DNA from: Succinivibrio dextrinosolvens
GTDB lineage: Bacteria > Pseudomonadota > Gammaproteobacteria > Enterobacterales > Succinivibrionaceae
Direction of reading: 5' to 3'
NCBI RefSeq assembly: GCF_011065405.1
Contig: NZ_CP047056.1
Coordinates: 1-64,000, forward strand
DNA length: 64,000 nt
The translations under genes and the position numbers were made by a program. The notes beneath the pieces were generated by a model. The model ran no database searches, was not told where the DNA came from, and saw nothing but the letters and a program-made list of their open reading frames with translations. Below, piece after piece: positions 6,193-53,896 of this stretch (within the stretch, counting starts at the first letter, position 1; each line of letters opens with the position of its first letter).

Positions 6193-6201
6193 GGCTTAAT
6201 A

Positions 6202-14118: not shown

Positions 14119-14234
14119 CGTCTCAATCATATTTTTAGTTAACCTGCAGATCTGCTCTGCAGGAGCTCTTTAAAAACTTGACCTATTTATTGTCATAATC
14201 ATATTAAAATAACACTAAATAGACTAAATATTTA

Positions 14235-14287: not shown

Positions 14288-14294
14288 TTTTAAT

Positions 14295-14639
14295 ATGACC
14301 ATTACAAAATCATATAACAAGCACACCAATACTTGGTATGTCTATGATACTACTTACGTCTTTGATGAAACTAAAAATAAGAAAGTTCAAAAAAGAAAAT
14401 GTATCGGAAAGTATGATCCGGTAACTGATAGCATTATTGAAACTGGGAGCAGAGGAAGGCCTCAAAAGGTTCTTGAGCCTAATAGAGTATCTAATTCTAA
14501 GTCTATCAATTCATCTGCTTTAGACATTGATTCAGCTCTTAAGAGAATAGCCTCTATTGAAAAGGTTATAGCTGAACTTCAATCTGAAGTTACTGAACTA
14601 AAGGATTTTCTGCTCAACAATCAGAACTCCTCTGTTTAA
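14295..14639 (+). CDS. IS630-associated accessory protein, copy B
   Basis: 114 aa, identical in protein sequence to the accessory protein of copy A, with the same N-terminal beta-rich domain and C-terminal predicted coiled coil, and ending 9 bp before the transposase. The DNA differs at synonymous positions (AGACCT/AGGCCT; TCAATT/TCTATT). Conservation in both copies argues that it is a real gene of the element. Confidence 0.7.
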   Translation: MTITKSYNKHTNTWYVYDTTYVFDETKNKKVQKRKCIGKYDPVTDSIIETGSRGRPQKVLEPNRVSNSKSINSSALDIDSALKRIASIEKVIAELQSEVTELKDFLLNNQNSSV

Positions 14640-14648
14640 GGCTTAATA

Positions 14649-15836: not shown

Positions 15837-15908
15837 GTGGAGTTTTTAAAGATCTCCTGCAGAGCAGATCTGCAGGTTAACTAAAAATATGATTGAGACG
15901 ATACACTA

Positions 15909-16010
15909 GTTTACGTGACAAACAGACTTTTAAAGATCTCCCTACAGTTGTGAAAACTATAGATGATTTGGTAAATGGCTAGAACTTAATTTCTTAAGTT
16001 CTTGGGCATG
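15909..16010 (+). pseudogene. IS4 transposase 3' end and right terminus
   Basis: Reads LRDKQTFKDLPTVVKTIDDL and a stop, then the IS4 right end, ending GTTCTTGGGCATG at 16010. It is nearly identical to the inverted sequence at 62530-62625. It is not the continuation of the IS4 on the other side of IS630 copy B, which already contains the equivalent motif RDLRLLKDLPSFIKK. Confidence 0.85.
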
Positions 16011-16128
16011 ATAAGGAATAATTCTTTTACAATACTATAAAGTGGTGTAACATTCATCAAATATGATTAAATCATACAGTCATTATTTGAGTTCATCTAA
16101 GTAAAATTTATGTGGAGTTTTAAGTTCC

Positions 16129-16869
16129 ATGAATATATTAGGCGTAATTCCTGCTCGTTATCATTCAACAAGATTGCCAGGAAAACCACTAATGGATATT
16201 TTGGGAAAACCAATGTTACAGAGAGTATACGAACGAGTCAGTTCTGTAAATGAGTTCAGTGATATTGTAGTGGCTACGGATGATCATCGTATTTACGATT
16301 TTTGCAAACAAAACAACATCCATGTTGAAATGACATCTTCAAGTCATCGTACAGCAGCAAATAGGCTACAGGAATTATCGGATAAATGTCCAGCTGATTT
16401 TTATATTCAGCTAAATGGAGACGAACCATTAATTGACATTAACGCTATAAGAAAGTCAATACCAGATTTTATCCCTGATGATATTGAATTTGGAACAAAT
16501 ATTATAACAAAAATACTTGATCCTGCACAGGTTTTAGACCCGTCGAATATAAAGATGGTGTTTGATGACAATATGAGATGTATTTATATGTCAAGATCTC
16601 CTATTCCATTTCCATTCATGGAAATCGACTACTCTTACTATAAGCATGTAGGTATTATTGGTTATAATAAAAAAATGCTCGATTTTTATAAAAATTCTAA
16701 ACCAGGAAGATTTGAACTAATAGAGGGAATTGACACGTTAAGATTTTTAGATTACGGAAAAATTCTAAAACTTTACGAAGTTGATAACTGTAAAACACTC
16801 TCTGTTGATACGCAAAAAGATCTAGAAATGGTTAGAAAAATTTTTTCTCAAGGCTTTTTGTCTAACTGA
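16129..16869 (+). CDS. CMP-Kdo synthetase-like cytidylyltransferase
   Basis: 246 aa, the length of KdsB. Motifs: PARYHSTRLPGKPL (residues 8-21, nucleotide-binding loop), QLNGDEPLI (94-102), YKHVGIIGY and the E-x-I-E-x-I-D-TLR segment near 206-215. KdsB enzymes activate Kdo with CTP to CMP-Kdo in the cytoplasm. One usually conserved stretch differs: H-x-SGTDR is here SSHRTAANR (71-79), so the substrate may be a related keto-deoxy sugar acid. GTGGAG precedes the ATG. It is followed by an aldolase and a KdsC-like phosphatase in the same direction, which together look like a pathway. Confidence 0.88.
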   Translation: MNILGVIPARYHSTRLPGKPLMDILGKPMLQRVYERVSSVNEFSDIVVATDDHRIYDFCKQNNIHVEMTSSSHRTAANRLQELSDKCPADFYIQLNGDEPLIDINAIRKSIPDFIPDDIEFGTNIITKILDPAQVLDPSNIKMVFDDNMRCIYMSRSPIPFPFMEIDYSYYKHVGIIGYNKKMLDFYKNSKPGRFELIEGIDTLRFLDYGKILKLYEVDNCKTLSVDTQKDLEMVRKIFSQGFLSN

Positions 16870-16981
16870 TCTTTTATAAGATTCTTTTAATGTTTATTTT
16901 TTTTCCAATAAAAGGAATTTTTAATCGTTGGTTAAAAAGAAAGAACTAATTGATAATTAACAATAAGGAATTTTTTTCAAT

Positions 16982-18592
16982 ATGAACCAATTAAATAATT
17001 TTATCCCAATAATACATGATACAAACGAAGAACCTAATGTAATGCTTTTGGACTGCACTCTTCGTGATGGAGGGTATGTTAACAACTGGAATTGGGGACA
17101 TGATAGAGCAAAATCTATAATTAGATCACTAATAAAATCTCATATTGATGTAGTAGAAGTTGGTTTTCTTAGAAATATTCCTTTTTTTGATCCTGATGTG
17201 ACGGTAGCTAATACGATTGAAGAGTTGAATACCTTTATTCCAGATAGCACTGGAAAAACAATTTTTTCAGGAATGGCTATGAGGAGTAATTATGATATAA
17301 AAAAACTTTCTCCATATTCAGGAAAAGGTATTGAGATGATAAGAATCACTGCCCATGATTACGATCTTAAAGAAGGAATGGCTTTTGCTAGAGAAGTTAA
17401 AGATAGGGGGTATAAATTAAGTATAAATCCTATCAATATAATGGGATACTCAGACGATAAAGTACTATGGATTATTGACGAGGTTAATAGAATTGAGCCA
17501 TATCAGTTTTCAATTGTTGATACTTTTGGAAGTATGAAAAGGCGAGATCTTGATAGAATAGTGAGTCTTGTTGATCATAATCTTGATAAAGAAATCAGAC
17601 TATCTCTGCACCTCCATGAAAATATGTCTTTAAGTACACTTCTTGCTCAACAATTTGTTGATAAAAGGATTAATCGCAAAATTGCAATTGATGGAAGTTT
17701 AATGGGAATGGGAAGAATTCCTGGTAATCTACCAATTGAACTTATAGCAGATTATACCAATGAATATTTAAATAAGATATATGACATAGATTTCATGATG
17801 GATGCAATTAATGAACATATTGAACCTTTAAAAGGAGAGTCTAACTGGGGATATACGCCTGCTTATTTTTTATCTGCGCACTATAATCTTCATCGAAATT
17901 ATGCTGAGCACTACCTAAAAAAAGGAGATTTAACTACAAAAGATATTAATCATATTCTTTCTCGTATTGATTTATACAAAAAAACTGTTTTTGATAAAGA
18001 TTATGCTGATCTACTTTATCGAAATTATCAAGATCATCAAATTGATGATTCTTTAGCAATAGACAATTTAAGCTCTGAATTATCTAATAAGGATATTCTT
18101 GTTGTAGCGCCTGGTTCTTCCCTAAATGATTATAATAAACAAATAAAACATTTTATTAGCGAAAAAAAACCAAAGGTGATTGCGATTAACTTTATTCCAA
18201 AATCTATTTCTTGTAATTATGCTTTTTTTAGCAATAATAAAAGACTTGAAGAGGAATCATCTTCAAATACAGATTTGATAATTACCTCAAATCTAATAGG
18301 ATCTAGTAATGCGAACAGAGCTGTTTATGTTCTTGACTATAATAGTCTCTCAAAAGCTTTTACACTAGGGTGTAACAGTTTTATTATGATTTTGAGTCTA
18401 TTGAAACGATTAACAGTTAACAATATTTATGTTTGCGGAGCCGATGGTTACGTAAAAGACTCACCAAATTATTTTTCTAACAAATATCGTACTTCAGATC
18501 TTAGAGGAAATGATTTTAATATTGCAGTAAAAGAGGCTATTCGTAAGTTAAATATAAATGTTGAGTTTATTACCCCTTCTGCATATAAATAA
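16982..18592 (+). CDS. DRE-TIM (HMG-CoA lyase-like) aldolase with C-terminal Rossmann-like domain
   Basis: 536 aa, two domains. Residues 20-300 form a DRE-TIM metallolyase barrel: LLDCTLRDGGYVNNW (22-36), the HLHEN metal-binding motif near 210, and the glycine-rich MGMGRIPGNLPIE near 242-254. Known members (HMG-CoA lyase, 4-hydroxy-2-oxovalerate aldolase) make or break C-C bonds next to a keto acid. Residues about 370-536 (DILVVAPGSSLNDY, VIAINFIP, FFSNNKRLEE, VCGADGYV) look like a Rossmann-type domain reminiscent of DUF115 or sialyltransferase-like folds; I cannot name it. Between a cytidylyltransferase and a KdsC-like phosphatase, it could form or process a keto-deoxy sugar acid. That role is inference. 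Confidence 0.8.
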   Translation: MNQLNNFIPIIHDTNEEPNVMLLDCTLRDGGYVNNWNWGHDRAKSIIRSLIKSHIDVVEVGFLRNIPFFDPDVTVANTIEELNTFIPDSTGKTIFSGMAMRSNYDIKKLSPYSGKGIEMIRITAHDYDLKEGMAFAREVKDRGYKLSINPINIMGYSDDKVLWIIDEVNRIEPYQFSIVDTFGSMKRRDLDRIVSLVDHNLDKEIRLSLHLHENMSLSTLLAQQFVDKRINRKIAIDGSLMGMGRIPGNLPIELIADYTNEYLNKIYDIDFMMDAINEHIEPLKGESNWGYTPAYFLSAHYNLHRNYAEHYLKKGDLTTKDINHILSRIDLYKKTVFDKDYADLLYRNYQDHQIDDSLAIDNLSSELSNKDILVVAPGSSLNDYNKQIKHFISEKKPKVIAINFIPKSISCNYAFFSNNKRLEEESSSNTDLIITSNLIGSSNANRAVYVLDYNSLSKAFTLGCNSFIMILSLLKRLTVNNIYVCGADGYVKDSPNYFSNKYRTSDLRGNDFNIAVKEAIRKLNINVEFITPSAYK

Positions 18593-18655
18593 TAAAACGT
18601 ATTTATTTTTTGTTTTACTATACAAACAACAGTAATCGTATGAGATTATATTGAG

Positions 18656-19168
18656 ATGCAATCTATTAAGCTTATGATCATTGACGTAGATGGAACTCTT
18701 ACGGATGGAGGTATCTACTATGACAATTTTGGAAATGAACTTAAAAAATTTTGTACTCGTGATGCGGCTGGATTTTTTGCAGCCTCAAAGTGTGGAATTA
18801 AGATCATGGTTCTTACAGGTAGAGCTTGTCAAGCTACACAAAGAAGAATGAAAGAGTTAAACGTAGACTATGTTGAGCAAGGTGTTAAAGATAAATTCGC
18901 CTTCATTAATGAGTTTCTTAATAAGAATAAAATTAACTATTCTGAAGTCGGATATATAGGAGATGATTTAAATGATCTTTATCTTATGCATGTTATAGGA
19001 TATAAAGCTTGCCCAAATGACAGCTGTAGAGAGATAAAAGAAGTGTGTGATTATATTAGTCCAATTAATGGTGGATCTGGCGCAGTTAGGGATATTATTG
19101 AGCATTATTTAAGAAAAAATGGCTTGTGGAACGATGCTATTAATCAGATTTATTTAGCAGGAATTTAA
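18656..19168 (+). CDS. KdsC-like HAD phosphatase
   Basis: 170 aa, the length of KdsC (Kdo-8-phosphate phosphatase). HAD motifs: IIDVDGTLTDGG with the nucleophile and acid/base aspartates near residues 9-11, VLTGR (motif II), and GDDLNDL (metal binding). The C1-cap-less architecture fits KdsC and the phosphatase halves of sialic-acid pathways. It would remove phosphate from a keto-sugar-acid phosphate before CMP activation by the enzyme at 16129. It is the third gene of the cassette, 64 bp after the aldolase. Confidence 0.9.
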   Translation: MQSIKLMIIDVDGTLTDGGIYYDNFGNELKKFCTRDAAGFFAASKCGIKIMVLTGRACQATQRRMKELNVDYVEQGVKDKFAFINEFLNKNKINYSEVGYIGDDLNDLYLMHVIGYKACPNDSCREIKEVCDYISPINGGSGAVRDIIEHYLRKNGLWNDAINQIYLAGI

Positions 19169-19262
19169 GATTGTTTTCTGTTGAAAAATAAAAAAAATAA
19201 ATAATAGCTTTTTTGACTATATAAAGTTCAATCATTCTGAAAAAATTAAACAAGAGAACTAT

Positions 19263-20945
19263 ATGTTAAACATAGGAAAAAAAATCATTAAACAGATTGA
19301 CCATAAATTATTTCACGACACAATTAAAAGGAAATGGACTAACTATAAATCTTCTCATGGTGAACGTGTTTATGATTTTTTGAGCATATTTCACAGAAGA
19401 TTCGTAAATGGAAAACCATTAAGGATATTGGCAAAACGGAATTTAAGCGTAAGAGATTTAATTCTAGCACAGTACTATCACAACAACTTTAGCAATTATA
19501 TGCAGTATGATATTGCATTGAGAGTGTTGGCTCTAGAGGAATATTTTGGTAATGCCCAAAATGGTTTTAATCTTTATCAAAAAATGCAATCAGGCTCAGG
19601 ATTTAATTGGAAATCTCGCTATAAAAACTTGATTCAATCTTATTCTAGTAATGGATTTAACAAAGCCAACCCAATAGAGGTTGACCATGATTTTAATATA
19701 ATGGATGGAGCTCATCGATTAGCTTTGGCGTATTACCATAAACAAGAGTTTATAGACGTAAATATCTATAACGGAGATAGAAAAAGAGTTTTTGATATGG
19801 ATTTTTTTTGGAGTAATGGTTTTACTCCTGATGAATGTAATCTAGTTAAAAATAAGACCCAACAGATTTTAAAAACAAGTCTTTACCCATTTGTTGGAGT
19901 TATTTGGCCTTCTGCATATGACATTAGAAACGAAATTTTAGCTGATCTAATACATTATGATGCAACAAATATTAAGATTGATAATATTCGGGACATTAAT
20001 TTGAATGGGGTTGATGAGTTTTCGCATCTTATCAAAGCATTATACTTTACTGATATTTTGGACGAAAAAGGGTGTGAAAAAAAAATTAAACTTATTAAAA
20101 ATAGCATGAATAGTGAACAATACAATGTCTGTATTTTTGATTTACATGTTAACTACCCTCAAATGAGCGTAAACCAAAAAAACTTCCAGTCTCAATCAAA
20201 TCTAGTTAAAAAATTAAAGTCAACATTTAGAAAAAGATTTGAAAACAAAGTGAAAAATTACAATTATGATGTTATACTTCACGTTACAGATAATTACTTG
20301 CAGAGTTTATTTTGTACAGAACTCTATAAAATTAATCAAGATTTGAATAAATTCTTTGAGAGGATAAAATATATTCCTTATTATGTAATTAGAGCTAAAG
20401 CTAGTCGCCAACACCCTGATTTTCCTAACAAATTTTATTTTAAAAGCAACTCCGATATTGTTACTATTTCAGAAAAATATTTAAATGAAATTTATAATAT
20501 CGCCCTTAACTTTTCATATGAACATTTTTGTTCTCTTCCTTATAAGACTGAACAAAATTCTGTTAATAAAAAAAGTAATGACTCATTTGAATTAATAAAA
20601 ATAAAATCAGTATCAGAAAAAGATTACAAAAAGGTTCAGATTTTTTTGATGGATTTTATGATTTTTCAATTTGAAATTCTTCTACATATTAATGGAATTA
20701 AGGATACTTTTAGAAATGAGTGTATAGAGCATAGAATTTTTGATAAATATTATTATCTACCAGATGACGATGAAATTATTATAAGACTAGTTGAGTATTA
20801 TAATAATCCACATAAGTCATGGTACAAAAATTATTTATTATCTCATTTAGCAGAACTTAATAAAGAAAGATTATTTTTAAATTTAAATGATAAAACGTTA
20901 TCTAAAAACAAATTAGAAAGATTTATTAAGAAATTAAAAGAATAA
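19263..20945 (+). CDS. Unknown 560-aa protein of polysaccharide locus
   Basis: I do not recognise a named family. Residues about 138-160 contain HDFNIMDGAHRLALAYYH, which resembles the DGxHR motif of ParB/sulfiredoxin-like folds. The region near 215-300 has GVIWPSAYDIRNEIL and VDEFSHLIKALYFTDIL. The remainder is charged, AT-coded and rich in Lys, Asn and Tyr; no signal peptide or membrane span is evident. It follows the sugar-acid cassette in the same direction and is probably the last gene of that transcription unit. A transferase or modifying role on the glycan is possible but unsupported. Confidence 0.7.
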   Translation: MLNIGKKIIKQIDHKLFHDTIKRKWTNYKSSHGERVYDFLSIFHRRFVNGKPLRILAKRNLSVRDLILAQYYHNNFSNYMQYDIALRVLALEEYFGNAQNGFNLYQKMQSGSGFNWKSRYKNLIQSYSSNGFNKANPIEVDHDFNIMDGAHRLALAYYHKQEFIDVNIYNGDRKRVFDMDFFWSNGFTPDECNLVKNKTQQILKTSLYPFVGVIWPSAYDIRNEILADLIHYDATNIKIDNIRDINLNGVDEFSHLIKALYFTDILDEKGCEKKIKLIKNSMNSEQYNVCIFDLHVNYPQMSVNQKNFQSQSNLVKKLKSTFRKRFENKVKNYNYDVILHVTDNYLQSLFCTELYKINQDLNKFFERIKYIPYYVIRAKASRQHPDFPNKFYFKSNSDIVTISEKYLNEIYNIALNFSYEHFCSLPYKTEQNSVNKKSNDSFELIKIKSVSEKDYKKVQIFLMDFMIFQFEILLHINGIKDTFRNECIEHRIFDKYYYLPDDDEIIIRLVEYYNNPHKSWYKNYLLSHLAELNKERLFLNLNDKTLSKNKLERFIKKLKE

Positions 20946-28337: not shown

Positions 28338-29960
28338 ATGAAAAATATTGCTCAGTCAGAAAACATTGAAGATTTTTTAGATAGTGATTATATCTATGTA
28401 GATAAGACTGAATATATCTATAATCTTACAAAAAATTATAAAAGAGTTTTCTTTTCACGTCCTCGCCGTTTCGGTAAGTCTCTGACTCTAAACACCATCG
28501 GAACTCTTTTTGAAAAAGGAGTTGATCCTTATTTCAAGGGAACATGGATTTATGACAAATGGGATCAAATGAAGTATCCCGTTCTTCATTTAAGTTTTCT
28601 TGAATACTCTGCAACAGATTTATCTGAATTTAAAAGACAGCTTTGTTTATCTATCTATAAATTCGCCAGAGCTCAAAAAATACAAGATGTTCTTGATGAT
28701 AAAGAACCGAATGTTTACATATCAAATCTTTTTGATGCTATGAATGATGGTGAGCAGCTGGTTCTGCTAATTGATGAATATGATCGTCAGCTAACAGCCA
28801 ATATTAACAATACAGAATTTTATGAGAAGTTCAGAATCTGTATCAGAGATTTCTATGGTGCTATTAAAGGCAAAAAGCAGATTAAATTCATGGCCGTTAC
28901 TGGAGTAACTCGCCTCAAAGATGTTTCTATCTTTTCTGTTGGATCAGATATTATGGACTTAAGCTATGAATACGCCTTTTCTAACATGATAGGTTTCACT
29001 AGAGATGAAATAAAAAAATTCTATATTGATTACCTAAGACTCGGCGTATCTTACGAGAATAATAAATCAACCGATAAGGTAACAGATGCAGATTGCGAAG
29101 AATTCATCGATAGAATGGCTGCGCATTATGATAGTTACTGCTTTGATAGAAAATATCGTAATAAGGTATTCTCTACCTATTCTGTTAATAATTTTCTTCA
29201 TAGTATTGTTTCCGATAAAGAAGTATATTTCGGAGATTACTGGTACGAAGTTGGTGGACTTCCATCTATTCTTATGAACTATATGGAATCACACAATCTG
29301 AATATAGAGAATCTTCTGACCTCAGAGATTGAAATTCCTTATAACGATTTTGCGAACCCAACCTCTCTTATTGATATTAATGAAAATGTTCTGATGTGTC
29401 AGACCGGATACTTAACTTTAAAATCAGACCTAGATCCTAATGATAACGTGATTCTTGGTGCGGCAAATTTAGAAGTTAAATCTGCTCTATTCAGACTTTT
29501 AAGTTTAAAAGTCTTTCAGAAGAATATTTCTCCATATTCCACCGGTAAAAATTATGTTCTTGAACAAGGCTCTGTTGAAGATATTATCTCGCTTTTCAAT
29601 GAAGTATTAGCAGCCCTATCTTATGATAAATATCCTGTTGATAATGAGTCTGTTCTAAGAGCACTTCTGCAGGTCTATCTGATTGGCAAGAATCATGATG
29701 TTCAAGTCGAGCAGCATAACAGCAGAGGCAGAAGTGATATTCTTGTAAACTTCCCAAAGCGCAGAGTTGTACTTGAACTGAAATACACGGATATAAATAG
29801 TGAAGAACAGAAAAAGCTTGAGGATGCGGAGCAGCAGATTATTGAAAAACGCTATGGTTTTGAAAATCTTGGAGACAGAGAGTTAATCCAAATCGCGTGC
29901 GTTTTTAATGGCGGTAAGGACAAACGTCAGATTACCTTGTACAAGAAAGTTGAAAAATAA
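28338..29960 (+). CDS. AAA-ATPase-like protein with PD-(D/E)XK nuclease domain
   Basis: 540 aa of the AAA-ATPase_like plus PDDEXK_9 family, abundant in gut bacteria. Residues 40-52 (SRPRRFGKSLTLN) form the P-loop-like motif and LVLLIDEYDRQL (140-152) the Walker B. Residues 460-485 (GRSDILVNFPKRRVVLELKY) form the D-ELK nuclease core. The biological role of the family is not settled; mobile-element or defence association is often suggested. It has its own gap upstream and is not in an operon. The gene is intact amid debris, which argues for retained use. Confidence 0.9.
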   Translation: MKNIAQSENIEDFLDSDYIYVDKTEYIYNLTKNYKRVFFSRPRRFGKSLTLNTIGTLFEKGVDPYFKGTWIYDKWDQMKYPVLHLSFLEYSATDLSEFKRQLCLSIYKFARAQKIQDVLDDKEPNVYISNLFDAMNDGEQLVLLIDEYDRQLTANINNTEFYEKFRICIRDFYGAIKGKKQIKFMAVTGVTRLKDVSIFSVGSDIMDLSYEYAFSNMIGFTRDEIKKFYIDYLRLGVSYENNKSTDKVTDADCEEFIDRMAAHYDSYCFDRKYRNKVFSTYSVNNFLHSIVSDKEVYFGDYWYEVGGLPSILMNYMESHNLNIENLLTSEIEIPYNDFANPTSLIDINENVLMCQTGYLTLKSDLDPNDNVILGAANLEVKSALFRLLSLKVFQKNISPYSTGKNYVLEQGSVEDIISLFNEVLAALSYDKYPVDNESVLRALLQVYLIGKNHDVQVEQHNSRGRSDILVNFPKRRVVLELKYTDINSEEQKKLEDAEQQIIEKRYGFENLGDRELIQIACVFNGGKDKRQITLYKKVEK

Positions 29961-42443: not shown

Positions 42444-42895
42444 AATATTGTTCTCTTACAGTTGGCTCCATGGAAAACAGAACCTCAATTGCCCTTGGAA
42501 TTGCTATAAACAAGCTTGAGCAGAGAATCTGGTGTATTGACGGTGATGGTGATGGTGATGGTGCTGTGCTTATGCATATGGGAGCAATGGCAGTTATAGG
42601 TTCCAATAAGCCAAAGAATCTCATTCACATCGTTATAAATAATGGTGCTCATGAAACAGTTGGTGGAATGCCAACAGTTGCTGCTGATATTGATGTTGTC
42701 GGAGTTGCTATAGCCTGCGGTTATCCAAATGCCGTATCAGTTGATTCCTTTGAGCTGTTAGACATAGCTTTAAAAGATGCAAAGTCTAGAAGTGAATTAA
42801 GTCTGATTGAATTGAAGTTCTCTACAGGTGCTAGAGATGATTTAGGTAGACCTACTACAACTGCGATGGAGAATAAGCTGAACTTTATGAAGTAG
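42444..42895 (+). pseudogene. Phosphonopyruvate decarboxylase 3' fragment (A)
   Basis: Open frame with SLTVGSMENRTSIALGIAI, the thiamine-diphosphate motif region RIWCIDGDGDGDGAVLMHMG, LIHIVINNGAHETVGGMPTV, ACGYPNAVSVDSFELL and GARDDLGRPTTTAMENK. These are C-terminal motifs of phosphonopyruvate decarboxylase (Ppd/AepY), which makes phosphonoacetaldehyde. The usual DGDGA is expanded to DGDGDGDGA by repeated GATGGT. A TAG stop follows FMK, removing the last few residues seen in the other fragment. The N-terminal two thirds are missing, and no PEP mutase is present. A relic. Confidence 0.85.
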
Positions 42896-42962
42896 TTAAA
42901 ATTCTCGTAGATAATTTTTTTTTTAATTTTGTAAAAGGTAAGAAATAACTTTTCTTGCCTTT

Positions 42963-43655
42963 TTAAATGTGTAAATTCCATGGCATTACACTTTCCAATA
43001 CCTCTTTTGAGATTGAGTCGGATTTATAACCAATGATGGTGCCTCGGTTATCCTTTTCAAATTCAATCTCACTCATATGCTCGGTCATAACTGAAATAGC
43101 TTTTCTCATGTATGTTTCAAATTCAACACCGTGCATCTGGGCAGTTTTATATAGTGAATAAAATAATGCCAGATTATCTGCTCCTCTAAAGGTATCTGAG
43201 GCAAGCATACTGTTTCTCAGGATATCCAACTCTCTGAATCTGGATTCAACTGCATTGTTATGCATCAGACCATATGGTGAATCCAGGAAAGTCTTCAGAG
43301 CTGCTTCATTGTTTACAATATAACCAATTGCTGCTTTTAACTTTTTAGAGCATTGCCTTTTTGGCTCTTCATCTTTCTTTGTGGTTATATCTGCATAGAT
43401 CCTTCTTGCATCTGCGCAGATTTCCTCAATCAGAGGCCGCAGCTCTCTGTTCTTTAGTACAACTATGTCCAAAGATGGATTTTGCTTACACCTTGCAGTG
43501 ATATCATTACAGATATGAAATGCATTAGAGATTTTGTCTACGAAACTTTGGGCATCCTTCAAGTCCTGCTCCCATTTCATCTTTTCAAATTCTCTGCATG
43601 GATTTCCATCCTCATCCATTCCATAATTCAACAGAATACAATAGTATCGCTTAAC
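42963..43655 (-). pseudogene. IS66 tnpC 3' part in left arm
   Basis: The minus-strand frame reads from HVKRYYCILLNYGMDEDGNP at the RIT border to NAVESRFRELDILRNSM, GADNLALFYSLYKTAQMHGV and a stop at 42963. This is the C-terminal portion of an IS66 TnpC, from the HAHVRR-type motif onward, including the catalytic Glu (NAVESRFREL). The part before HVKRYY is missing. It ends just inside the IS66 terminus (GTAAAAGGTAAGAAATAACT at 42931). Confidence 0.88.
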
Positions 43656-43689
43656 ATGAATCTTATTCGAGATCTCGAATAAGATTCAT
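43656..43689. repeat. 34-bp perfect palindrome, left copy
   Basis: Half-site ATGAATCTTATTCGAGA followed by its exact reverse complement. It marks the border between the IS66 tnpC sequence and the RIT element. Same sequence at 47173-47206. Confidence 0.93.
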
Positions 43690-43828
43690 TATCCTAATGT
43701 TTTTATTATCCTAAAAGAATTCTGCAACTGGCTTAAAATCGCCGTTTTTTTTTTATTTTACTCGAATAATAGCAATCCACTTTTAAACTTAAAAATAGGA
43801 GTATTTTCCTATTTTGGAGGTTGTTATT

Positions 43829-45057
43829 ATGAAATGTTCCAGCTGTGATTTAACTATTTTATCAGCCTTACTTATAAAACGTTTAAAAAAACTTTGTTTT
43901 AAAAACAGTTCAATAAAAATATATGAATGGGGACTGAATAAATTAGACCTGTACATGAGACAGCTTAATCTGTCTTCTTTTTCTAAATCTGTTGGATTAA
44001 AGTTCATAGAGTATCTAGAAAAACTTGATCCTAAGGTATGTCCAAAAACTGTTATAAAATTTTCTAAAACGCTAATAAATAGACTTGTAGATGAGTTAAA
44101 TAATGATTTTAAAATATGTCATTTCCCTTCAGTCTTACCGGTTGTTAATGAAAACTTTCAAACAGTAATTGATGAATATTGTAATTATGTTAGCACTTTT
44201 AATAGTCCGGGCTCGGTAAGACATAAAAGAGATACAATTACAAAACTATGCGCATATTTTGAACAGGCCGGAGGGTATTCTTTTTTAGAGCTTAATCCTG
44301 TTCTAGTTGGTCAAGCTTGTCTCAAATTTCAAAACCATGGAATCCTGTGGATTGTAAGGGATTTTTTAAGGTATCTCTTTGATAAAAAAATCCTGTTGGC
44401 TGATTTTTCTGCTATTGTCCCCAAGCATAAACAACCTCAGACTGTTCCTTCCATTTATACAGAGGAAGAGCTTTTAAAAGTAGGGAAAGCTATAAAGTCG
44501 GAAGGTGAGACAGTAAAAGAAAAACGAGATTTCGCAATGTTTATGCTAGCAGCAAAATTAGGTCTTAGATGCGGTGATATTGTCAGATTATCCATAGATA
44601 ACTTTAATTTTTCAGATAAGACGTTAGTTTTGACTACGCATAAATGTCCAACATTTTTACAGCTTGCGTTGACTGATGACATTATCGATGCTGTTCAAGA
44701 ATATTATTCAGTACGCCCAAAGTCTGAATACAAGGAACTATTTTAAGTTTACGAGCTCCATTCGGAAATGTTACAACCAGTGCATTTAGATTCAGTCTAC
44801 AGAACGCCTTTATCAAAGCTGGGATTAATACAGAGAATAAAAAGAAGGGACCGCATGTATTAAGATCATCTCTTGCTTCTGCCATGATCAATAAAGGTGT
44901 TTCTTATAAAACAGTACGTAATATTCTCGGTCATCGAGATCCAAAAGTCATGAAACACTACGCCAAAGTTGATATAGAAAATTTAAGAGAATACGCATTA
45001 CCAGCTCCAAAAGCTACAGGAAAATTCTTAATGTTTCTGAACGGAGGTGGAATATGA
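43829..45057 (+). pseudogene. RIT tyrosine recombinase A, frameshifted
   Basis: Start chosen at ATG 43829, behind GGAGG at 43816-43820; an inverted repeat AAAATAGGA/TCCTATTTT (43792-43815) precedes it and may regulate it. The N-terminal SAM-like domain leads to the catalytic domain with LGLRCGDIVRLSIDNF (Arg). A one-T loss at 44741-44746 (GAACTATTTTAAG) breaks the frame; the other frame then gives GPHVLRSSLASAMINKG (HxxR), VRNILGHRDPKVMKHYAKVD (H and the nucleophile Tyr) to the TGA at 45055. Restored length 409 aa. The stop overlaps the next ATG (ATGA). Confidence 0.87.
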
Positions 45058-46039
45058 GTTTTTTCAGTATATTTTCTGGTTATATTTCTGATTTTTTAGC
45101 TTTTAGGAAACAGACAAAAGTCTGAGCTGTTATCTCCATGATCAGGCGTATTTATCTGATTTTGATTCTTTTTTAGTAGCTCAAAATTGGAATAAGAACT
45201 TTGTTTCAGAAACTATCATGCAAAAGTGGATTTCTCAATTAAAAGGGAAAACTAGTACAATTGCCAACAAAGTTATTACAGTCAGAAATTTTCTTGTTTA
45301 TCTAAATACAATTCATAACGAGAATTTAAATTTTCTGCCAATAACACCTAAAGTTCATGATGATTACCAACCATTCATTTTTACAGATGAACAGCTAAAA
45401 TCTTTTTTAGAATATGTTGATTCTTTACCTCACTATGTAAAATTAAAAAATCCGAAAACCCAAATAGGATATTGCATGCTCCTTAGACTAATTATCGGGT
45501 GTGGTCTAAGAATTGGTGAAACCCTTAAGCTAAGAGTGAAAGATGTTGATTTTATAAATGCAATTTTGACAATGAGATTTGCAAAAAATAATAAACAGCG
45601 CTTTGTTCCAATGCATGAGAGTCTTAACCAGATGCTAAAGAGCTATTGCATCGCATTGGGCATTATTAACTCTCCTGGTAGTCTCCTATTTTGGGATCAT
45701 TCAAAAGGAACGCCATTACCTCCCCAAAAAATCGGTGGATATCTAAGAAAACTGCTTATCCAATTTGGCCTTAGAACAAGAGATAAAAAGGATCATGAAC
45801 GAGGAGTATGTATTCATATACTCAGACATTATTTTGCTTTTAAGTCATTTAAGCAGGCACAATTAGCAGGGAGAAATTTTAACGATTCAGTGCCTTTCCT
45901 TTCAGTATATCTAGGTCATGAGTCATTTAAAGAAACAGAGAAATATCTGAAATTTACTTCAGAAATGTATCCTGAAGCGATAGAAAGCTTTAATGACTAT
46001 ACATCCCAACTTTTCCCAGAGGTAATTTTCTATGACTAA
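45054..46039 (+). pseudogene. RIT tyrosine recombinase B, frameshifted
   Basis: Starts at ATG 45054, overlapping the previous stop by 4 bp. After MSFFSIFSGYISDFLAFRKQ the frame is lost by one missing A in ACAAAAGTC (45114-45121); restored it continues as SLSCYLHDQAYLSDF. The catalytic domain has IIGCGLRIGETLKLRVKDVD (Arg), GVCIHILRHYFAF (HxxR), LSVYLGHESFKETEKYLKFT (H and Tyr). Restored length 328 aa. Confidence 0.87.
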
Positions 46040-47077
46040 AAAAGTTTATGCTTTTATGAGGCTTCTTGAAGAATATTTTACAAACTATCTTCCTGTCTGC
46101 GCAGGTCTTAGCAAGAATACAATTAAGTCCTATAAATATACCTTTAAACTTCTTCTACAGTATATTTTTAAAGAGAAAACGTAAGTGCAGACCACGTCAA
46201 ATTTGAAGACCTTACAGTTGAACTGATTGAAAATTTTTTAAAATGGCTAGAGTCTGAAAGAAATTGCGGAATTTCAACCAGAAATCAGAGACTAGCTGCA
46301 TTAAGCGCATATTCTAAATATGCTCAAGATCGCAACACAGAAGCGGCTCTTGTTTTTAGAAATGCCATTACCCAGATCCCAATCAAGAGAGGTGTAACAC
46401 ACAAAAGAAGTGTATTTTCCAGGGAAGAAATAAAGATTCTGTTAGAATTGCCTAATGAAAAATATGCTTCAGGGCTGAGAGATAAGGTTCTTCTTTCTGT
46501 GCTTTATGGATCAGGTGCAAGAGCTCAGGAACTTTGTAATTTAAAAGTAAAAGATGTCATAAACGACAATAATAAAATCAAACTTAGATTGATAGGAAAA
46601 GGTAATAAGTCAAGAACTGTATTACTTCCTGAAAATTGTGCCAAGCTACTAAAGTGTTTCATGAATCATCGGAAATTACAAGGTCAGCTAGAACGCCACG
46701 TCTTTTCAAGCCAAACACATGAACAAATGACGGTATCCTGTATTGAAATGATACTAAAAAAATATGTAGCTATAGCCAAAAACAAGTATCACGACAAATT
46801 TACAGAGAAATCATATTCTCCACATTCACTTCGCCACAGTTTTGCAACACATTTGATTGAAGCAAAGGTTCCTCTTATTGTTGTAAAAAATATACTTGGA
46901 CATGCATCACTTTCAACGACCGAAGTGTATATACAGATATCACAGGAGCAAACTGACAATAGTATAATGGAGTGGAATAAAAATTGGATTAGTAATTTTA
47001 AAACTGAGGTATCAAAAGAATCTCAAGAAAAAGACAGTTATCCAACAGGAGAAGTGCCAGATTTCTTAGCTACCTGA
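46032..47077 (+). pseudogene. RIT tyrosine recombinase C, frameshifted
   Basis: Starts at ATG 46032, overlapping the end of recombinase B by 8 bp, so translation is probably coupled. One missing A in GAGAAAACGTAAG (46174-46186) breaks the frame. Restored, VSADHVKFEDLTVELIENFL leads to VLYGSGARAQELCNLKVKDV (Arg), SYSPHSLRHSFATHLIEAKV (HxxR) and VKNILGHASLSTTEVYIQIS (H, Tyr), a XerC/D-like catalytic domain. Restored length 348 aa. Confidence 0.88.
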
Positions 47078-47172
47078 AAAATTTGACTATAGATTATCTT
47101 AAGAGAATTCTGATTTAAGTCTATTTTAAGCCAGTTGCAGAATTCTTTTAGGATAATAAAAACATTAGGATA

Positions 47173-47206
47173 ATGAATCTTATTCGAGATCTCGAATAAG
47201 ATTCAT
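47173..47206. repeat. 34-bp perfect palindrome, right copy
   Basis: Identical to 43656-43689. It is preceded by TTAGGATAAT at 47148-47157 and 47165-47174, a 17-bp-spaced direct repeat. Confidence 0.93.
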
Positions 47207-47899
47207 GTTAAGCGATACTATTGTATTCTGTTGAATTATGGAATGGATGAGGATGGAAATCCATGCAGAGAATTTGAAAAGATGAAATGGGAGCAGGACT
47301 TGAAGGATGCCCAAAGTTTCGTAGACAAAATCTCTAATGCATTTCATATCTGTAATGATATCACTGCAAGGTGTAAGCAAAATCCATCTTTGGACATAGT
47401 TGTACTAAAGAACAGAGAGCTGCGGCCTCTGATTGAGGAAATCTGCGCAGATGCAAGAAGGATCTATGCAGATATAACCACAAAGAAAGATGAAGAGCCA
47501 AAAAGGCAATGCTCTAAAAAGTTAAAAGCAGCAATTGGTTATATTGTAAACAATGAAGCAGCTCTGAAGACTTTCCTGGATTCACCATATGGTCTGATGC
47601 ATAACAATGCAGTTGAATCCAGATTCAGAGAGTTGGATATCCTGAGAAACAGTATGCTTGCCTCAGATACCTTTAGAGGAGCAGATAATCTGGCATTATT
47701 TTATTCACTATATAAAACTGCCCAGATGCACGGTGTTGAATTTGAAACATACATGAGAAAAGCTATTTCAGTTATGACCGAGCATATGAGTGAGATTGAA
47801 TTTGAAAAGGATAACCGAGGCACCATCATTGGTTATAAATCCGACTCAATCTCAAAAGAGGTATTGGAAAGTGTAATGCCATGGAATTTACACATTTAA
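47207..47899 (+). pseudogene. IS66 tnpC 3' part in right arm
   Basis: Same 3' part as in the left arm (from HVKRYY to the stop at 47899), now on the plus strand, followed by the IS66 terminus ending CCTTTTAC at 47931. A normal insertion would leave the 5' half of the gene on one side; no 5' half of this tnpC is seen anywhere in the window. Confidence 0.88.
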
Positions 47900-47938
47900 A
47901 AAGGCAAGAAAAGTTATTTCTTACCTTTTACAAAATTA

Positions 47939-48204: not shown

Positions 48205-49185
48205 ATGACTGACTTTGATGATTCTCTTATCAACACCAATGAGAAAATTCTAAATATAGGTACCACAGGTCTGACTGCAACCGCCTTTGATTATTTTGAA
48301 TTGAAGGATGTCATCAGACCTGCAATAGGAAAAATCGGTTTCAACGTTAGCATTGATAATCCTGAGATAGTACAGGCTCTAGTAATGCAGGTGTTAAGTG
48401 TTCCTTATCAGTCACTATATGGGACAGCTGAATTCTTTCAGGATAAGCCCCTATCAGCATTGCTCGGCGTTGAGAATGTTGAGTTTGAGGACTTGAATAG
48501 AGTTAATCTGGCAAGATGTTTAGACGAGGTTTACAACTTTGGACCTGAGCGGCTATTCCTCAGATGTGCAAAACAGGTAGCAATAAAGCTTGGGGCTCAA
48601 ATCAAAGAGTGTCACATAGACAGTACCTCCTTACACTATGATTGTAAGACCAGAGAGGAAGAAGGTGTAGATTTACTTTTGGATAAGGGCTATTCTCGAG
48701 ATGGTCATCCTGAACTGAATCAGATCAATCATCTGCAAATCTGCGATGCCGTCACCAAGATACCTTTCTTTTTCAAGTCAGTAAGCGGTCATATTCACGA
48801 TAAGACCTCATTCAAAAACCTTCTGATTGACGATATGCCTGTACTTAAGAAAGAATTCAGTGAACTGAAATATCTCGTAGGAGACAGTGCCTTATGCACC
48901 GACCCCATTGCAAATGGTGCCCATGAAACAGTTGGAGGAATGCCAACAGTTGCATCCGATATCAATGTTGTAGGAATTGCTAAAGCCTGCGGTTATCCAA
49001 ACGCAGTATCTGTTGATTCCTTTGAGTTGTTAGATAAAGCTTTAGAAGAGGCAAAGTCCAGAAATGAGCTAAGTCTGATTGAGGTGAAATGTTCTATTGG
49101 TGCCAGAGATGATCTTGGCAGACCTACAACAACTGCGATGGAGAATAAACAGAATTTTATGGAGTATTTGAAATCTTTACTGTAA
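48205..49185 (+). pseudogene. In-frame chimera: IS1634 transposase 5' part + phosphonopyruvate decarboxylase 3' fragment (B)
   Basis: 326 codons. Residues 1-235 are the N-terminal part of an IS1634-type transposase (HIDSTSLHYDCKTREEE with the first Asp, YLVGDSALCT with the second). At about 48910 it passes directly into NGAHETVGGMPTVASDINVV, ACGYPNAVSVDSFELL, GARDDLGRPTTTAMENK and NFMEYLKSLL, the C-terminus of phosphonopyruvate decarboxylase. The transposase lacks its Glu and the decarboxylase lacks its cofactor motif, so no activity is expected, though the frame is fully open. The decarboxylase part is a close but not identical relative of fragment A at 42444. Confidence 0.87.
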
Positions 49186-49321
49186 TTTCTTCATTGATTT
49201 GATTTCAGAAATAAAGATGAGGCATAGCACAGATAATGTAATACATCATTGATCATCAAAATAACCAACCCTAAGATCAAATAGGTAGATTGGTCTGAAA
49301 TAATTTTCTGAGAGGAACTGC

Positions 49322-51025
49322 ATGTCTGAAGCAAAATTTAAATTTTTTTCAGTAGGACATGGTTTGTTCCATGCAGGTAAGATAACTGTAGCAGACGGTA
49401 ATTTTTTTACCTTTATCTATGACTGTGGTTCTCGGACCCCCTCTGTTTTAAAGTCTTCTATAGATTCCTGTATTGAATTTTTTAAGGGTAAAAATAACTC
49501 AGATAATATCAGTAAAATTGATTTTCTTTTTGTTTCACATCTTCATTATGATCATATCAATGGCATTCGTCCTCTTATAGAAAAACTAAGTCAAAATCAT
49601 ATAAGCGTATCAAACGTCGTTTTGCCTTATGTTGATTTGTACCAGAGAGTAATACTTTTATTAGAAGCTTTAAATCATGAGGAACAATCACAAGATAAGT
49701 TTCTTCATAATAATTTTGATGCAGCCTTTGTTGATTACCTTGATTTCTATAAGAATCCTTGTAATTATCTGAAAAAGCTTTTTGTTAATAAAGATAATCC
49801 TCAGGAAGAACCACCTGTCTTTTATATTGTAAATGCGCCTTCGGACTGTTTCATATCTTATATAAGAATTCCTATTGATCTAGAACTATTTGATCTCATA
49901 TATAGTATTAAACAAGATAATAATAAAAATACCAATTCGTTATATTCATATGACTCGAAATCTTATTTTTTTGATGATTATATGATCACTCTTGGTTCTG
50001 GTGGGCGAAATGAGTTTTCTTCTGAAAATAGGTCTGATTTTGATTTTATATTAAAGATTTTTTATTCTGAAGAGGAAGATAATTGTGAAAAACATAAAGC
50101 TTCATATCAAAGAAAAAGAGTTGAGCTTAAAGTTGCAAATGGGGCTCTTGGCATAATTGTAAAAGACACGTGGAGATTTATCTGTTTCAGCACTCCTCTT
50201 CCTTTGGATAAAAAAGTCTGTATTCAGAGTCTTTATGATGAATTTGTAGATATTACGCGAGCTAATGGCTTTAAATTAGTAGATGTTTTCCGAAAAGATA
50301 ATATTGAGCGTCTAAGAAAACATTATAAGAAAATGTCGCCCGATTTAAATTCAACTTCTCTGCTCATATATCATTTTCCATTAGACTGTAAAGATAACGT
50401 AATTCTACATCGAGCATTTCATTTTCAAAGAAAACACTGTTATTTCTTTAGAAAACAAGGATCTTCTCTAAGGAAAAAAAGTTACTTCTTGAGGAAACAT
50501 GGTTGCTTCCTAAGAAAACACAATTCTTTCCTGTTGTTAGGAGATGTGAACTTAAATACATCTGTAATATATAAAAGTAAATATCAGGAAAATAGTAATA
50601 AGAGTTTTCTTCAGTACCTTTATAAAAAATTACTACCTCTGCAGGATCCTGCTCACATGAGAGGCTTTATAGAATTTGAAAAACGTCTGAATATTCATCA
50701 TGAGAGCTCGGTGAACTATGTACTTGTGCCTCATCATGGATCTGATAACTCCTGGAATGAAAATATCTTCTATTTTCTTAATTATTTTAATGAGTCTTCT
50801 GTCTATATTGTATCCTCTGCTGTTGATGGAAAACATCATCCAGGCAGGGAGTTTATGAAATCATTTCTTAATAAAAAGTATGTTTCGAGTGATGTTAATT
50901 ATGAAGAAATGAACTGTCTGTTTATTTCGGAACTTTGTTCTGCTGAAGAGTTTTTGCTTTTTCTCAGGGGAAATAATTGTTTGAAGTGGTGTAATGAAAA
51001 GCAGTTTGTCGATATAGTCAAATGA
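49322..51025 (+). CDS. Metallo-beta-lactamase-fold protein, first gene of putative three-gene system
   Basis: 567 aa. It begins with FSVGHGLFHAG, like the VGqGd start of ComEC-type MBL domains; the metal motif HLHYDHINGI is at 73-82; the metal-bridging Asp is in LLLGDVNL near 408; and VPHHGSDNSW near 471 supplies the final His. Between the usual secondary elements is a long insertion with five 7-residue repeats (369-403). No signal peptide or transmembrane segment, so probably cytoplasmic; by family a hydrolase, possibly nuclease or phosphodiesterase. GAGAGGA precedes the ATG. It is followed by two same-strand genes at 75 bp and 1 bp spacing. Confidence 0.85.
   Translation: MSEAKFKFFSVGHGLFHAGKITVADGNFFTFIYDCGSRTPSVLKSSIDSCIEFFKGKNNSDNISKIDFLFVSHLHYDHINGIRPLIEKLSQNHISVSNVVLPYVDLYQRVILLLEALNHEEQSQDKFLHNNFDAAFVDYLDFYKNPCNYLKKLFVNKDNPQEEPPVFYIVNAPSDCFISYIRIPIDLELFDLIYSIKQDNNKNTNSLYSYDSKSYFFDDYMITLGSGGRNEFSSENRSDFDFILKIFYSEEEDNCEKHKASYQRKRVELKVANGALGIIVKDTWRFICFSTPLPLDKKVCIQSLYDEFVDITRANGFKLVDVFRKDNIERLRKHYKKMSPDLNSTSLLIYHFPLDCKDNVILHRAFHFQRKHCYFFRKQGSSLRKKSYFLRKHGCFLRKHNSFLLLGDVNLNTSVIYKSKYQENSNKSFLQYLYKKLLPLQDPAHMRGFIEFEKRLNIHHESSVNYVLVPHHGSDNSWNENIFYFLNYFNESSVYIVSSAVDGKHHPGREFMKSFLNKKYVSSDVNYEEMNCLFISELCSAEEFLLFLRGNNCLKWCNEKQFVDIVK
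50426..50530 (+). repeat. Five 21-bp repeats in the metallo-beta-lactamase gene
   Basis: Encodes QRKHCYF, FRKQGSS, LRKKSYF, LRKHGCF, LRKHNSF. The RK at positions 2-3 is invariant, giving a strongly basic, aromatic stretch directly before the catalytic LLLGDVNL. The DNA units are degenerate but in register. Confidence 0.8.
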
Positions 51026-51100
51026 TTATGTATTGTGCGAGAATGTTTTGGTAGAGTCTAAAAAATTGATACTAATGAATTGTTTTTTTGAGATTAAATC

Positions 51101-52552
51101 ATGATAAAGAATTCAACAAAAGATTTTACTTCTGATATTTTGAATTATATTAATAAAACTAGGCCTATTTATCTAGATTTTGATGATTCTATAGATAATA
51201 TTGATGTTGACTGTTTTCTAGTAATACATAATTTAAATAAAAAAAAATATGTTCTTAAAGCAAAAGCGAGCTTTTGTTTTAATAAAATGAAATGTGTGGT
51301 TACTGTGGATAATCTAGAGTTAAAGAGTAAAAAACTTTATATTAGAGATAAATTCTATAATTATTTACCTGGTAATTATGTTTCAATTTACAGTAATAAA
51401 GCTTATATTCCTAGAGCTTTTATTTGTTCATTTAATTATTCTGAAGACTTTAATCTTATTTTTGAAGTTTCTTCAAATCAGATTATTCGAAATAAAAAAG
51501 CAATTTCTGATAATAATATTGATGTTATTGAAAGAAAATACTATGTAATTATGTTTCATGCTTCGTGGAAAATAGGGGATTTTGAATACGAAGAGTCAAC
51601 TGATAATTATTTTTTTAAGCTTGTTAAAGTAAGGTCTTCACAAAATATTGTTAGGACATTTGGTTTTATTTTATTTTATACCCCTGTTGGGCTAAGTCAG
51701 TGTCTCAATAAAATTTATGAAATAAATAATTATTTTTCATTTATATACAGATGTGTTTCAAAAATATCTGAGATATATGTTTTGTCTGATGATGTTTACC
51801 TGTTAGATAATCACTCTTTTGAAAAGGTTTACAACAGCGATACTGTAGAATATCAGGACCATTGCTTTAATCCTTTTTCAATTCCTCCACTTCAAAGATT
51901 TCCTGTATTTGAATTATCTAATAAAAAAAATTTTCTGTTTTACAGTTGGGATATTTTTTTTAGATCATACAAAAAACATCTATGGTTCGTAGATAGTTTT
52001 TCCTCAACTTTGGCTAGATATAATGACGAGATTCTTTACCCTCAAAATAATTTTTTATTGTCGTTATTTTATATTGAATCAATATGGAGAGCTTTATATA
52101 ACACACAAAAACATAATAAGAAATATAAAGAAACTTCAGAAAAGAAAAAAAGAATAACTTTTAAAAGACTGCTAAAAGAAGCTTGTTCTATCTGTATTAC
52201 AGAACAATTACAGAGTTTTTTTACAGATATTATCCCAGAAAAAAACGATGGATTAATAGAAGATTATTCTAATAAGCTACAGGATAAAATAGCGGATTAT
52301 CTTTATTATTGTTATAAACAGTTTAAGGTTGCATCTTCTAAAAATAATAGAAAAGTAAATTATGATTTTTCATCTGAAGATAACTATATTGTTCAATATA
52401 ACCAGGCAATATGTGCATTTAATCTTTTGTTGATCTCTTTGTTATATGCTTATTTTGGTGGAAGTATCAGATATGTAGAGCATTGGATTATGCAGAGGCA
52501 AAATTTTTTGGTCGAACCTGTAAAAAAACGATTTTACAATCTGGGCTTATAA
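51101..52552 (+). CDS. Unrecognised 483-aa protein, second gene of putative system
   Basis: I do not recognise the family with confidence. The N-terminal half (about 1-230) is beta-rich by composition (KKKYVLKAKASFCF, CVVTVDNLELKSKKLYI). The C-terminal part (about 300-480) looks helical, with NNFLLSLFYIESIWRALYN and QAICAFNLLLISLLYAYFGG. This beta-then-helix layout recalls ApeA-like HEPN proteins, but no clear Rx4-6H motif is visible (NNRKVNYD is the nearest), so this is a weak comparison. Very AT-rich codon use. It ends 1 bp before the kinase gene, so co-translation is likely. Confidence 0.75.
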   Translation: MIKNSTKDFTSDILNYINKTRPIYLDFDDSIDNIDVDCFLVIHNLNKKKYVLKAKASFCFNKMKCVVTVDNLELKSKKLYIRDKFYNYLPGNYVSIYSNKAYIPRAFICSFNYSEDFNLIFEVSSNQIIRNKKAISDNNIDVIERKYYVIMFHASWKIGDFEYEESTDNYFFKLVKVRSSQNIVRTFGFILFYTPVGLSQCLNKIYEINNYFSFIYRCVSKISEIYVLSDDVYLLDNHSFEKVYNSDTVEYQDHCFNPFSIPPLQRFPVFELSNKKNFLFYSWDIFFRSYKKHLWFVDSFSSTLARYNDEILYPQNNFLLSLFYIESIWRALYNTQKHNKKYKETSEKKKRITFKRLLKEACSICITEQLQSFFTDIIPEKNDGLIEDYSNKLQDKIADYLYYCYKQFKVASSKNNRKVNYDFSSEDNYIVQYNQAICAFNLLLISLLYAYFGGSIRYVEHWIMQRQNFLVEPVKKRFYNLGL

Positions 52553-52553
52553 T

Positions 52554-53369
52554 ATGATGAGTAAGATCCTATCGCTTAAGACAGAAACGTTAATTCCTTA
52601 TAGTTCTTTTGAAGTAATAGATCAAGATTCTTCATGTGGCTTGGTTGCAAAAGTTAAAAAAAATGGAGAATTTATTGCTATCAAAATTTTTCTGAATTTT
52701 GAGCTCAATCAGCTCATATCAGAATACAAGTGTTTACATATTTTAAACTCAAAAAAAAGTAAGAATATCGTCAAGTTTAGGGCTGCTCACAAATATGATT
52801 TTAAGTCTTTACTTGATACAGAAGGATTTAAAACTAACAAAGCTTTAAATGAGCGTTATAATTCTGCTTATGTATCGTCTGATATTTATGTCTTTGAGTT
52901 TGATTATTACTATGGATTTAATCTTGAAGATATTATTTATTGCGAACCTTTATATAATGCTCGTAATGTTCATAAAATCATATTTGAATTAGTTAATGCA
53001 CTAAAATTATGTCATAACAGTAAGATAGTTCACCACGATCTTTCTTCCAAAAACGTTTTTTTTGACTCAGAGAATAAAATGACAGTTCTTTTAGATTTTG
53101 GAAATGCTGAACTTAAAAAATCCAATTATGACCAATTATATCGAGAAGATATTATTATGTTGGGGAGAGTATTGTACTATTTGATATCAAAAAAGACATC
53201 AGATTATTTTTCCGAATTTACATGTAATGAAAAACAACAAATCATGATAGAAGATATGGATGAGTGTAAGTGCTATTATACAAATCTTATTAAAAAGTGT
53301 ATTACAGAGACCTCTTGCTGTAATGATGCTATTAATTTGATTTATAACTGGGTGTTATTTAATAAGTAG
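52554..53369 (+). CDS. Eukaryotic-like protein kinase, third gene of putative system
   Basis: 271 aa, a minimal kinase domain. FIAIKIFL gives the VAIK lysine (Lys44) and ISEYKCLHIL the alpha-C Glu; the catalytic loop is VHHDLSSKNVFF (Asp162, Asn167) and the metal loop is LLDFGNAE (Asp181). The HRD Arg is replaced by His (HHD), as in some atypical kinases. No transmembrane or PASTA region. Overlap-like spacing to the unknown protein suggests the kinase acts on, or is controlled by, the two upstream products. All key residues for ATP binding and transfer are present. Confidence 0.87.
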   Translation: MMSKILSLKTETLIPYSSFEVIDQDSSCGLVAKVKKNGEFIAIKIFLNFELNQLISEYKCLHILNSKKSKNIVKFRAAHKYDFKSLLDTEGFKTNKALNERYNSAYVSSDIYVFEFDYYYGFNLEDIIYCEPLYNARNVHKIIFELVNALKLCHNSKIVHHDLSSKNVFFDSENKMTVLLDFGNAELKKSNYDQLYREDIIMLGRVLYYLISKKTSDYFSEFTCNEKQQIMIEDMDECKCYYTNLIKKCITETSCCNDAINLIYNWVLFNK

Positions 53370-53512: not shown

Positions 53513-53605
53513 ATGAGACGACTCTGTTTAAAAAATATTTGCCCTATTACAGAAGAGGCCAGAATTGAATTTGATCGATTCTGTGTTCTTATTGGACCTC
53601 AGAGC
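53513..53605 (+). pseudogene. 5' stub of a P-loop ATPase gene
   Basis: From the ATG at 53513 the frame reads MRRLCLKNICPITEEARIEF then DRFCVLIGPQS, the start of an AAA/ABC-type ATPase, and then enters IS110 sequence where a GKST motif is expected. AAGGA precedes the start. The remainder of the gene is not in the window. Confidence 0.6.
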
Positions 53606-53896
53606 ATTTGTAAAACCTATATCTTCCAGAGCCTCATATAAAGACTGCCAATATACTCCTGTGGACTCCATTATCAGAACCTCAGGATCTTTGCTTTTAC
53701 ACCATTCAGCAAATTTCACTAATTCAGGTTTTGATTCGGTTCCTGACCAGGTATCACCTTCAACAACTTTATTTCCAAACACTCCTCTCTGGAATACAGC
53801 AACAATCAAATTCGAATGAACATCGATCCCGATTGCACTTTGATGAAGAGCATGGAAAACCGCCATCCTTTTATTCTTATTATGCGCTATACTCAT
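53528..53896 (-). pseudogene. IS110-family transposase N-terminal fragment
   Basis: Residues HQSAIGIDVHSNLIVAVFQR (first Asp) and VLIMESTGVYWQSLYEALED (Glu) are the N-terminal DEDD half of an IS110 recombinase. After EDIGF the frame runs into the ATPase stub on the other strand; the DD pair and C-terminal domain are missing. A third, distinct IS110-type member in this window. Confidence 0.85.

Follow-up and report, generated by a model that had tools for sequence, protein, structure and literature searches.

Three intact genes amid insertion-sequence debris

The window analysed here comprises the first 64,000 nucleotides of contig NZ_CP047056.1 (assembly GCF_011065405.1), read on the forward strand, from the 3.47-Mb, single-contig genome of Succinivibrio dextrinosolvens. 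Our subject is a trio of genes at 49322-53369, which encode a metallo-beta-lactamase (MBL) protein, a middle protein and a protein kinase, and which we assess as a candidate defence unit. The features of the trio are listed below, with residues numbered in the gene 1 protein; pLDDT is the predicted local distance difference test score of its structure model.

49310..49316, + strand: Shine-Dalgarno-like GAGAGGA 5' of the MBL gene, by direct reading
49322..51025, + strand: gene 1, free-standing ComEC-type MBL protein, 567 aa
49535..49555, + strand: metal motif S72-HLHYDH, residues 72-78; S72, H73, D77 and H78 invariant in 55 aligned sequences
49865..50116, + strand: first long low-confidence insertion, residues 182-265; pLDDT below 50 over most of it
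50428..50520, + strand: second insertion, directly 5' of GDVNL; contains a diverged tandem repeat of period 21 (residues ~369-400)
50540..50554, + strand: metal motif GDVNL, residues 407-411; D408 invariant in the 55 sequences
50729..50746, + strand: metal motif PHHGSD, residues 470-475; H472 and G473 invariant and H471 nearly so in the 55 sequences
51101..52552, + strand: gene 2, middle protein without a recognised family, 483 aa
52554..53369, + strand: gene 3, protein kinase with a short activation segment, 271 aa (Pfam PF00069)

The original prediction, made from the letters of the DNA, described three open genes on one strand, spaced by 75 bp (genes 1-2) and 1 bp (genes 2-3), in a region of mostly broken neighbours. 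The open reading frame coordinates bear out this layout, and the probabilities that the frames are open by chance are 9e-21, 2e-20 and 1e-11 for genes 1, 2 and 3 in a simple one-frame model with local base composition. The third codon position is the G+C minimum in genes 1 and 2, and gene 3 has a G+C fraction of 0.24 at its second and 0.25 at its third codon position. Scans for promoters and terminators gave results at chance level only.

The flanking frames are indeed debris, namely transposase pieces and three small frames without a Pfam match. To the left lie an IS66 fragment (47231-47899, 36.6 bits) and, at 48205-49185, a frame in which a DUF4277 domain (61.3 bits) is accompanied by a weak match to a thiamine pyrophosphate (TPP) enzyme (20.1 bits, below the cut-off of 21.9), and to the right lies a 122-aa IS110-like piece (53528-53896; 27.9 bits, slightly below the cut-off of 29). 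The genes of the trio are real and intact amid these remnants of insertion sequences (IS). The trio stretch is AT-rich, with 25-32% G+C in 1-kb windows versus 34-40% immediately to its left.

Such a setting invites a simple explanation, namely that a stand-alone mobile MBL nuclease gene and an unrelated two-gene unit (gene 2 and the kinase) became neighbours by chance in an IS-rich region. The unequal gaps and the transposase frames that fill the window are consistent with it. On the other side, three intact genes stand on one strand with no debris in between, and they are AT-rich compared with most of the local transposase DNA, a property shared in the window by a sugar locus further left and by the DNA at 54-55 kb. 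We consider chance adjacency rather unlikely and rank it second, after a partner-regulated nuclease.

Gene 1 very probably encodes a nuclease of a defence-linked family

ComEC-type MBL proteins are marked by the metal motifs HxHxDH or HxDxDH, the D of GD, and HHG. All three are found in gene 1 (residues 73-78, 408 and 471-473), in agreement with the motifs HLHYDH, GDVNL and PHHGSD reported earlier, and an HHPG motif stands at residue 505. The MBL fold of gene 1 is nearest to that of ComEC. Among PADLOC models, gene 1 matches LmuA (E 3.7e-10) and RTasMBL (E 2e-7), and 53 of 55 members of its family, gene 1 included, match LmuA at E ≤ 1e-3.

The interval from H73 to HHG is 396 aa, versus a median of 275 and a maximum of 346 in 63 of 77 relatives; in the other 14, which were left out, one or both motifs could not be located with the pattern. 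Tandem Repeats Finder resolves the second insertion into 4.4 copies with 66% matches, and pLDDT also falls below 50 at residues 377-379, 381-395, 415-422 and 424-427.

We then inspected the neighbours of MBL relatives, of which one search gave at least 124, with 80 kept; the 92 loci analysed include duplicates (L005 and L076, and the similar-looking L067 and L102), and contig ends truncate many of them. Restriction-type clusters recur at these loci: one cluster of helicases, HsdR-like by reading, has members from 11 loci, and another cluster, HsdS-like, has members from 7, all within three frames of the MBL gene. Sixty neighbours, mostly close and on the same strand, were selected by hand for a domain scan, and among the matches listed (25 of 84 families) were Sel1 repeats (5 neighbours, 3 loci), HsdS (4), TPR-S (2), McrBC (1) and HEPN_LA2681 (1). 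A same-strand neighbour within 100 bp accompanies 41 of the 74 distinct relatives; tight neighbours are thus common in the family, which speaks against chance adjacency, and the 33 of 74 that have none speak for it. Taken as a whole, the neighbour set is suggestive of an effector that swaps partners. One pairing recurs, as the MBL relatives of loci L008, L029 (a Pasteurellaceae bacterium), L032 (Haemophilus) and L061 (Ursidibacter) all adjoin Sel1-repeat genes.

The same survey bears on the idea that the trio has no part in defence and that its enzymes serve the chemistry of the surface or of nucleotides, with the MBL protein as a phosphodiesterase or esterase. No sugar-gene cluster was found among neighbour clusters of three or more, where restriction-type clusters recur, and about 28 kb of mostly transposase frames separate the trio from the sugar locus of the window. 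We regard this as the least probable of the readings considered here. Because the family matches defence MBL models, has restriction or TPR/Sel1 genes beside some of its members and shares the ComEC nuclease fold, effector nuclease is the likeliest role of the MBL protein, and gene 1 very probably encodes a nuclease of a defence-linked family. The original prediction had offered an effector nuclease or a phosphodiesterase, of which the former is the likelier.

Gene 3 encodes an atypical kinase

Gene 3 matches Pfam PF00069 with 43.8 bits (cut-off 31.7) and has the catalytic residues K44, E57, D162, N167 and D181-F-G, among them the Lys, Asp and DFG residues read earlier. From the DFG Asp to the helix-F Asp it counts 18 residues, versus 37-63 in 24 generic kinases (24 of 27 were measurable, and the pattern misplaced one, L170, at 54). 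No APE-like motif ([AGS]PE) was found in gene 3, an absence that says little by itself because the pattern is present in only 17 of the 27 generic kinases. Owing to its very short activation segment, gene 3 is not a canonical Hanks-type Ser/Thr kinase, and as judged from its sequence it is atypical.

Bud32 and other short-loop kinases have as their targets the partners with which they form a complex. A short activation segment would suit the modification of a bound partner, as in a toxin-antitoxin-like unit in which the MBL protein is a toxin neutralised through modification by the kinase, together with the middle protein. Nucleotidyl-transfer antitoxins modify HEPN toxins, and the small three-gene size would also fit. 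Such a reading leaves the middle protein unaccounted for, and no MBL/kinase pair was found in the literature searched, although the search was not aimed at toxin-antitoxin pairs. We consider it improbable.

Gene 2 matches no recognised family

At E ≤ 1, searches of Pfam, PADLOC and NCBIfam gave no match to gene 2. In PHROG it matches phrog_35633 weakly (E 0.0059, over 31 residues), and a viral structure library search returned two unnamed matches at E ≤ 1e-3. The single-sequence model is unusable (pLDDT 34), with a beta-rich N-terminal half and a helical C-terminal half. Only weak, short matches were found in 369 genomes of the class and 56 of the family; there were none in plasmids or phages, nor in viral or genome contigs, where the patterns used can detect only close relatives. 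The sensitive search covered these class and family genomes, and the scarcity of relatives may also reflect undersampling.

Several candidate relatives were rejected. Locus L002 (E 5e-4, class genomes) looks unrelated on reading and was judged a chance match, as were L106 (E 0.0035), L108 (E 0.0043) and L107 (E 0.18), of which L107 and L108 also look unrelated on reading. The phrog_35633 match and four frames at E 0.33-0.9 near MBL relatives were judged chance likewise.

Length and layout prompted a comparison with the HEPN protein ApeA, for which we found no support; the identity was not disproved. Against nine ApeA-like proteins, hhalign scored gene 2 at 18.8, below the best of 40 shuffles (23.9) and the best of 60 unrelated proteins (26.0); the nine include one below the Pfam cut-off (L018), and four shorter ApeA matches were left out. 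Against a set of four the score was 13.7, within the shuffle and unrelated-protein controls. Because a single-sequence query has little power, these scores amount to lack of support only. PF18739 (HEPN_Apea) had no match in the host's own genome, and R-x4-H occurs in gene 2 only at residues 288-293, a position that, as we read it, differs from that of the motif in ApeA. The role of signal recogniser, earlier assigned to the middle protein, has the position of the gene as its sole basis.

Co-occurrence of the three genes

A lack of conserved co-occurrence outside this strain had been named in advance as an outcome that would refute a three-gene system. No co-occurrence was found in the 92 MBL-relative loci, in 13 further viral loci or in the 55 family genomes besides this one, the family sample being small. 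In the 92 loci, the best gene 2 match in a single-sequence search has E 0.33, and the sole kinase match (E 0.95) is an MBL frame itself; the 13 viral loci contain no kinase or gene 2 match at E ≤ 0.1. A motif for kinases, with a recovery of 27 of 29 generic kinase loci, is absent from the 92 loci and has one match in the 13 (L185), judged chance, and a 28-sequence kinase profile gave no match at E ≤ 0.01 near MBL relatives. Neither the kinase nor gene 2 has a match in plasmid or phage records, where the kinase searches were insensitive and found no kinase of any kind.

In the family genomes, where a second trio is absent, gene 2 has weak matches in 2, gene 1 in 1 and the kinase in 7. The sole other match to the MBL profile (L121, E 8e-4) reads as a lactonase-like MBL. 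Besides the trio's own, there are 10 kinase matches in the 7 genomes: one (L111) reads as Kdo-kinase-like, the kinase motif is present in two (L115 and L116), and the remainder were judged generic by frame length only (647-1431 aa).

Within the genomes searched, these negative results are the outcome named beforehand as refuting; they weigh against a conserved three-gene system, and the lack of co-occurrence in 92 and 13 loci counts in favour of chance adjacency. Two further points tell against a partner-regulated defence nuclease. Housekeeping-type adenylosuccinate synthetase, glutaminase and GGDEF appear once each among the matches listed for the 60 selected neighbours. An array of three RKxxS-like sites at residues 377-402, considered as a target of the kinase, was rejected; three relatives are equally dense in a 40-aa window, so that phosphorylation of the insertion is a guess. 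Because the combination was not met again in the genomes searched, the trio stays a candidate for a defence unit. The original prediction is borne out in what it observed and supported only in part in its interpretation.

A tentative model

Our leading reading, held tentatively and at somewhat less than even confidence, is that the trio is an anti-invader, likely anti-phage, unit, probably acquired horizontally, in which an MBL nuclease is regulated by its partners and a kinase takes the place of a protease. The MBL enzyme would be the DNA-cutting effector, held inactive by its own insertions, and the middle protein would bind either the MBL enzyme or the trigger. By analogy with Bud32-type enzymes, the short-loop kinase may work on its partners inside a complex. 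Phosphorylation would then turn the nuclease on, or hold it off, in place of the cleavage carried out by the trypsin-like or caspase partners in Hachiman, AVAST and canu. The most specific version, a ComEC-type pro-nuclease gated through phosphorylation of its insertions with a protein of an unrecognised family as sensor or scaffold, is unlikely, more so than chance adjacency; no phosphorylation-gated MBL nuclease unit was found in the literature searched.

If the model is correct, a nuclease type that is elsewhere under protease control would here be under that of a kinase, and one effector would prove to have come under two or more types of enzymatic switch. The trio would then provide an instance, in bacteria, of a death nuclease whose gate is phosphorylation, and its middle protein would represent a new family. 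Should the three genes have met by chance, gene 1 would nonetheless clearly exemplify the MBL nuclease genes of a mobile, partner-changing family.

Other features of the window

Three consecutive tyrosine recombinase frames (43814-44746, 45218-46039 and 46448-47077) lie to the left of the trio, bracketed by perfect 816-nt inverted repeats with IS66 fragments (42924-43739 and 47123-47938). The segment 42924-47938 may be a recombinase-in-trio element flanked by two IS copies in inverted orientation. A direct repeat, 85% identical, flanks the recombinase block (42641-42902 and 48913-49174); it resembles the end of a TPP-enzyme gene (the Pfam match of the right copy is below cut-off), phosphonopyruvate-decarboxylase-like by reading.

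Further left, the sugar locus (3922-20945) mixes surface-polysaccharide-like genes with transposase frames. By reading only, its frames are flippase-, glycosyltransferase-, epimerase-, CMP-Kdo-synthase- and KdsC-like. An intact 540-aa protein with AAA-ATPase_like and PD-(D/E)XK nuclease domains is encoded at 28338-29960.

Comparison with known systems

PD-T4-6 is a single-gene system, and a channel domain is a feature of ComEC. Gene 3 partially matches the kinases of MADS (mad6, E 4.4e-11) and PD-T4-6 (E 2e-10) in PADLOC, which lists no cut-off, and MAD6 (E 2.6e-10) and Bud32 (E 3.6e-7) in NCBIfam. It differs from both NCBIfam models in score, with 39.5 bits versus a cut-off of 460 for MAD6 (NF047741) and 29.9 bits versus 125 for Bud32. 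Unlike ComEC/Rec2, gene 1 (567 aa) has no channel domain and has long insertions.

Gene 2 is similar to ApeA in length, with a beta-rich N-terminal and a helical C-terminal half in its low-confidence model, but it lacks a match to the HEPN_Apea or ApeA NTD profiles (Pfam, E ≤ 1). ApeA-NTD1 is described as consisting mostly of beta strands (PMC3710099).

No defence unit that combines an MBL protein with a kinase was found in the literature searched. Unlike Lamassu, the trio and the flanking frames scanned with Pfam contain no SMC-like LmuB, and unlike Avs1a of AVAST type 1, gene 1 reaches only 18.8 bits versus the NCBIfam cut-off of 420 (NF041809). Protease-gated MBL nucleases include HamM of Hachiman, Avs1a of AVAST, the Lamassu and DRT versions and CanC of canu, and the pro-nucleases of Hachiman, AVAST and canu have dual disordered insertions that are opened by protease cleavage (PMC12799240). 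Like these gated nucleases, the trio has a ComEC-type MBL domain and close partner genes, and its MBL protein is predicted to have long, poorly ordered insertions between the metal motifs. In contrast to the nuclease-protease pairs, it is adjoined by a kinase and a protein of no recognised family in place of a recognised trypsin-like protease or caspase.

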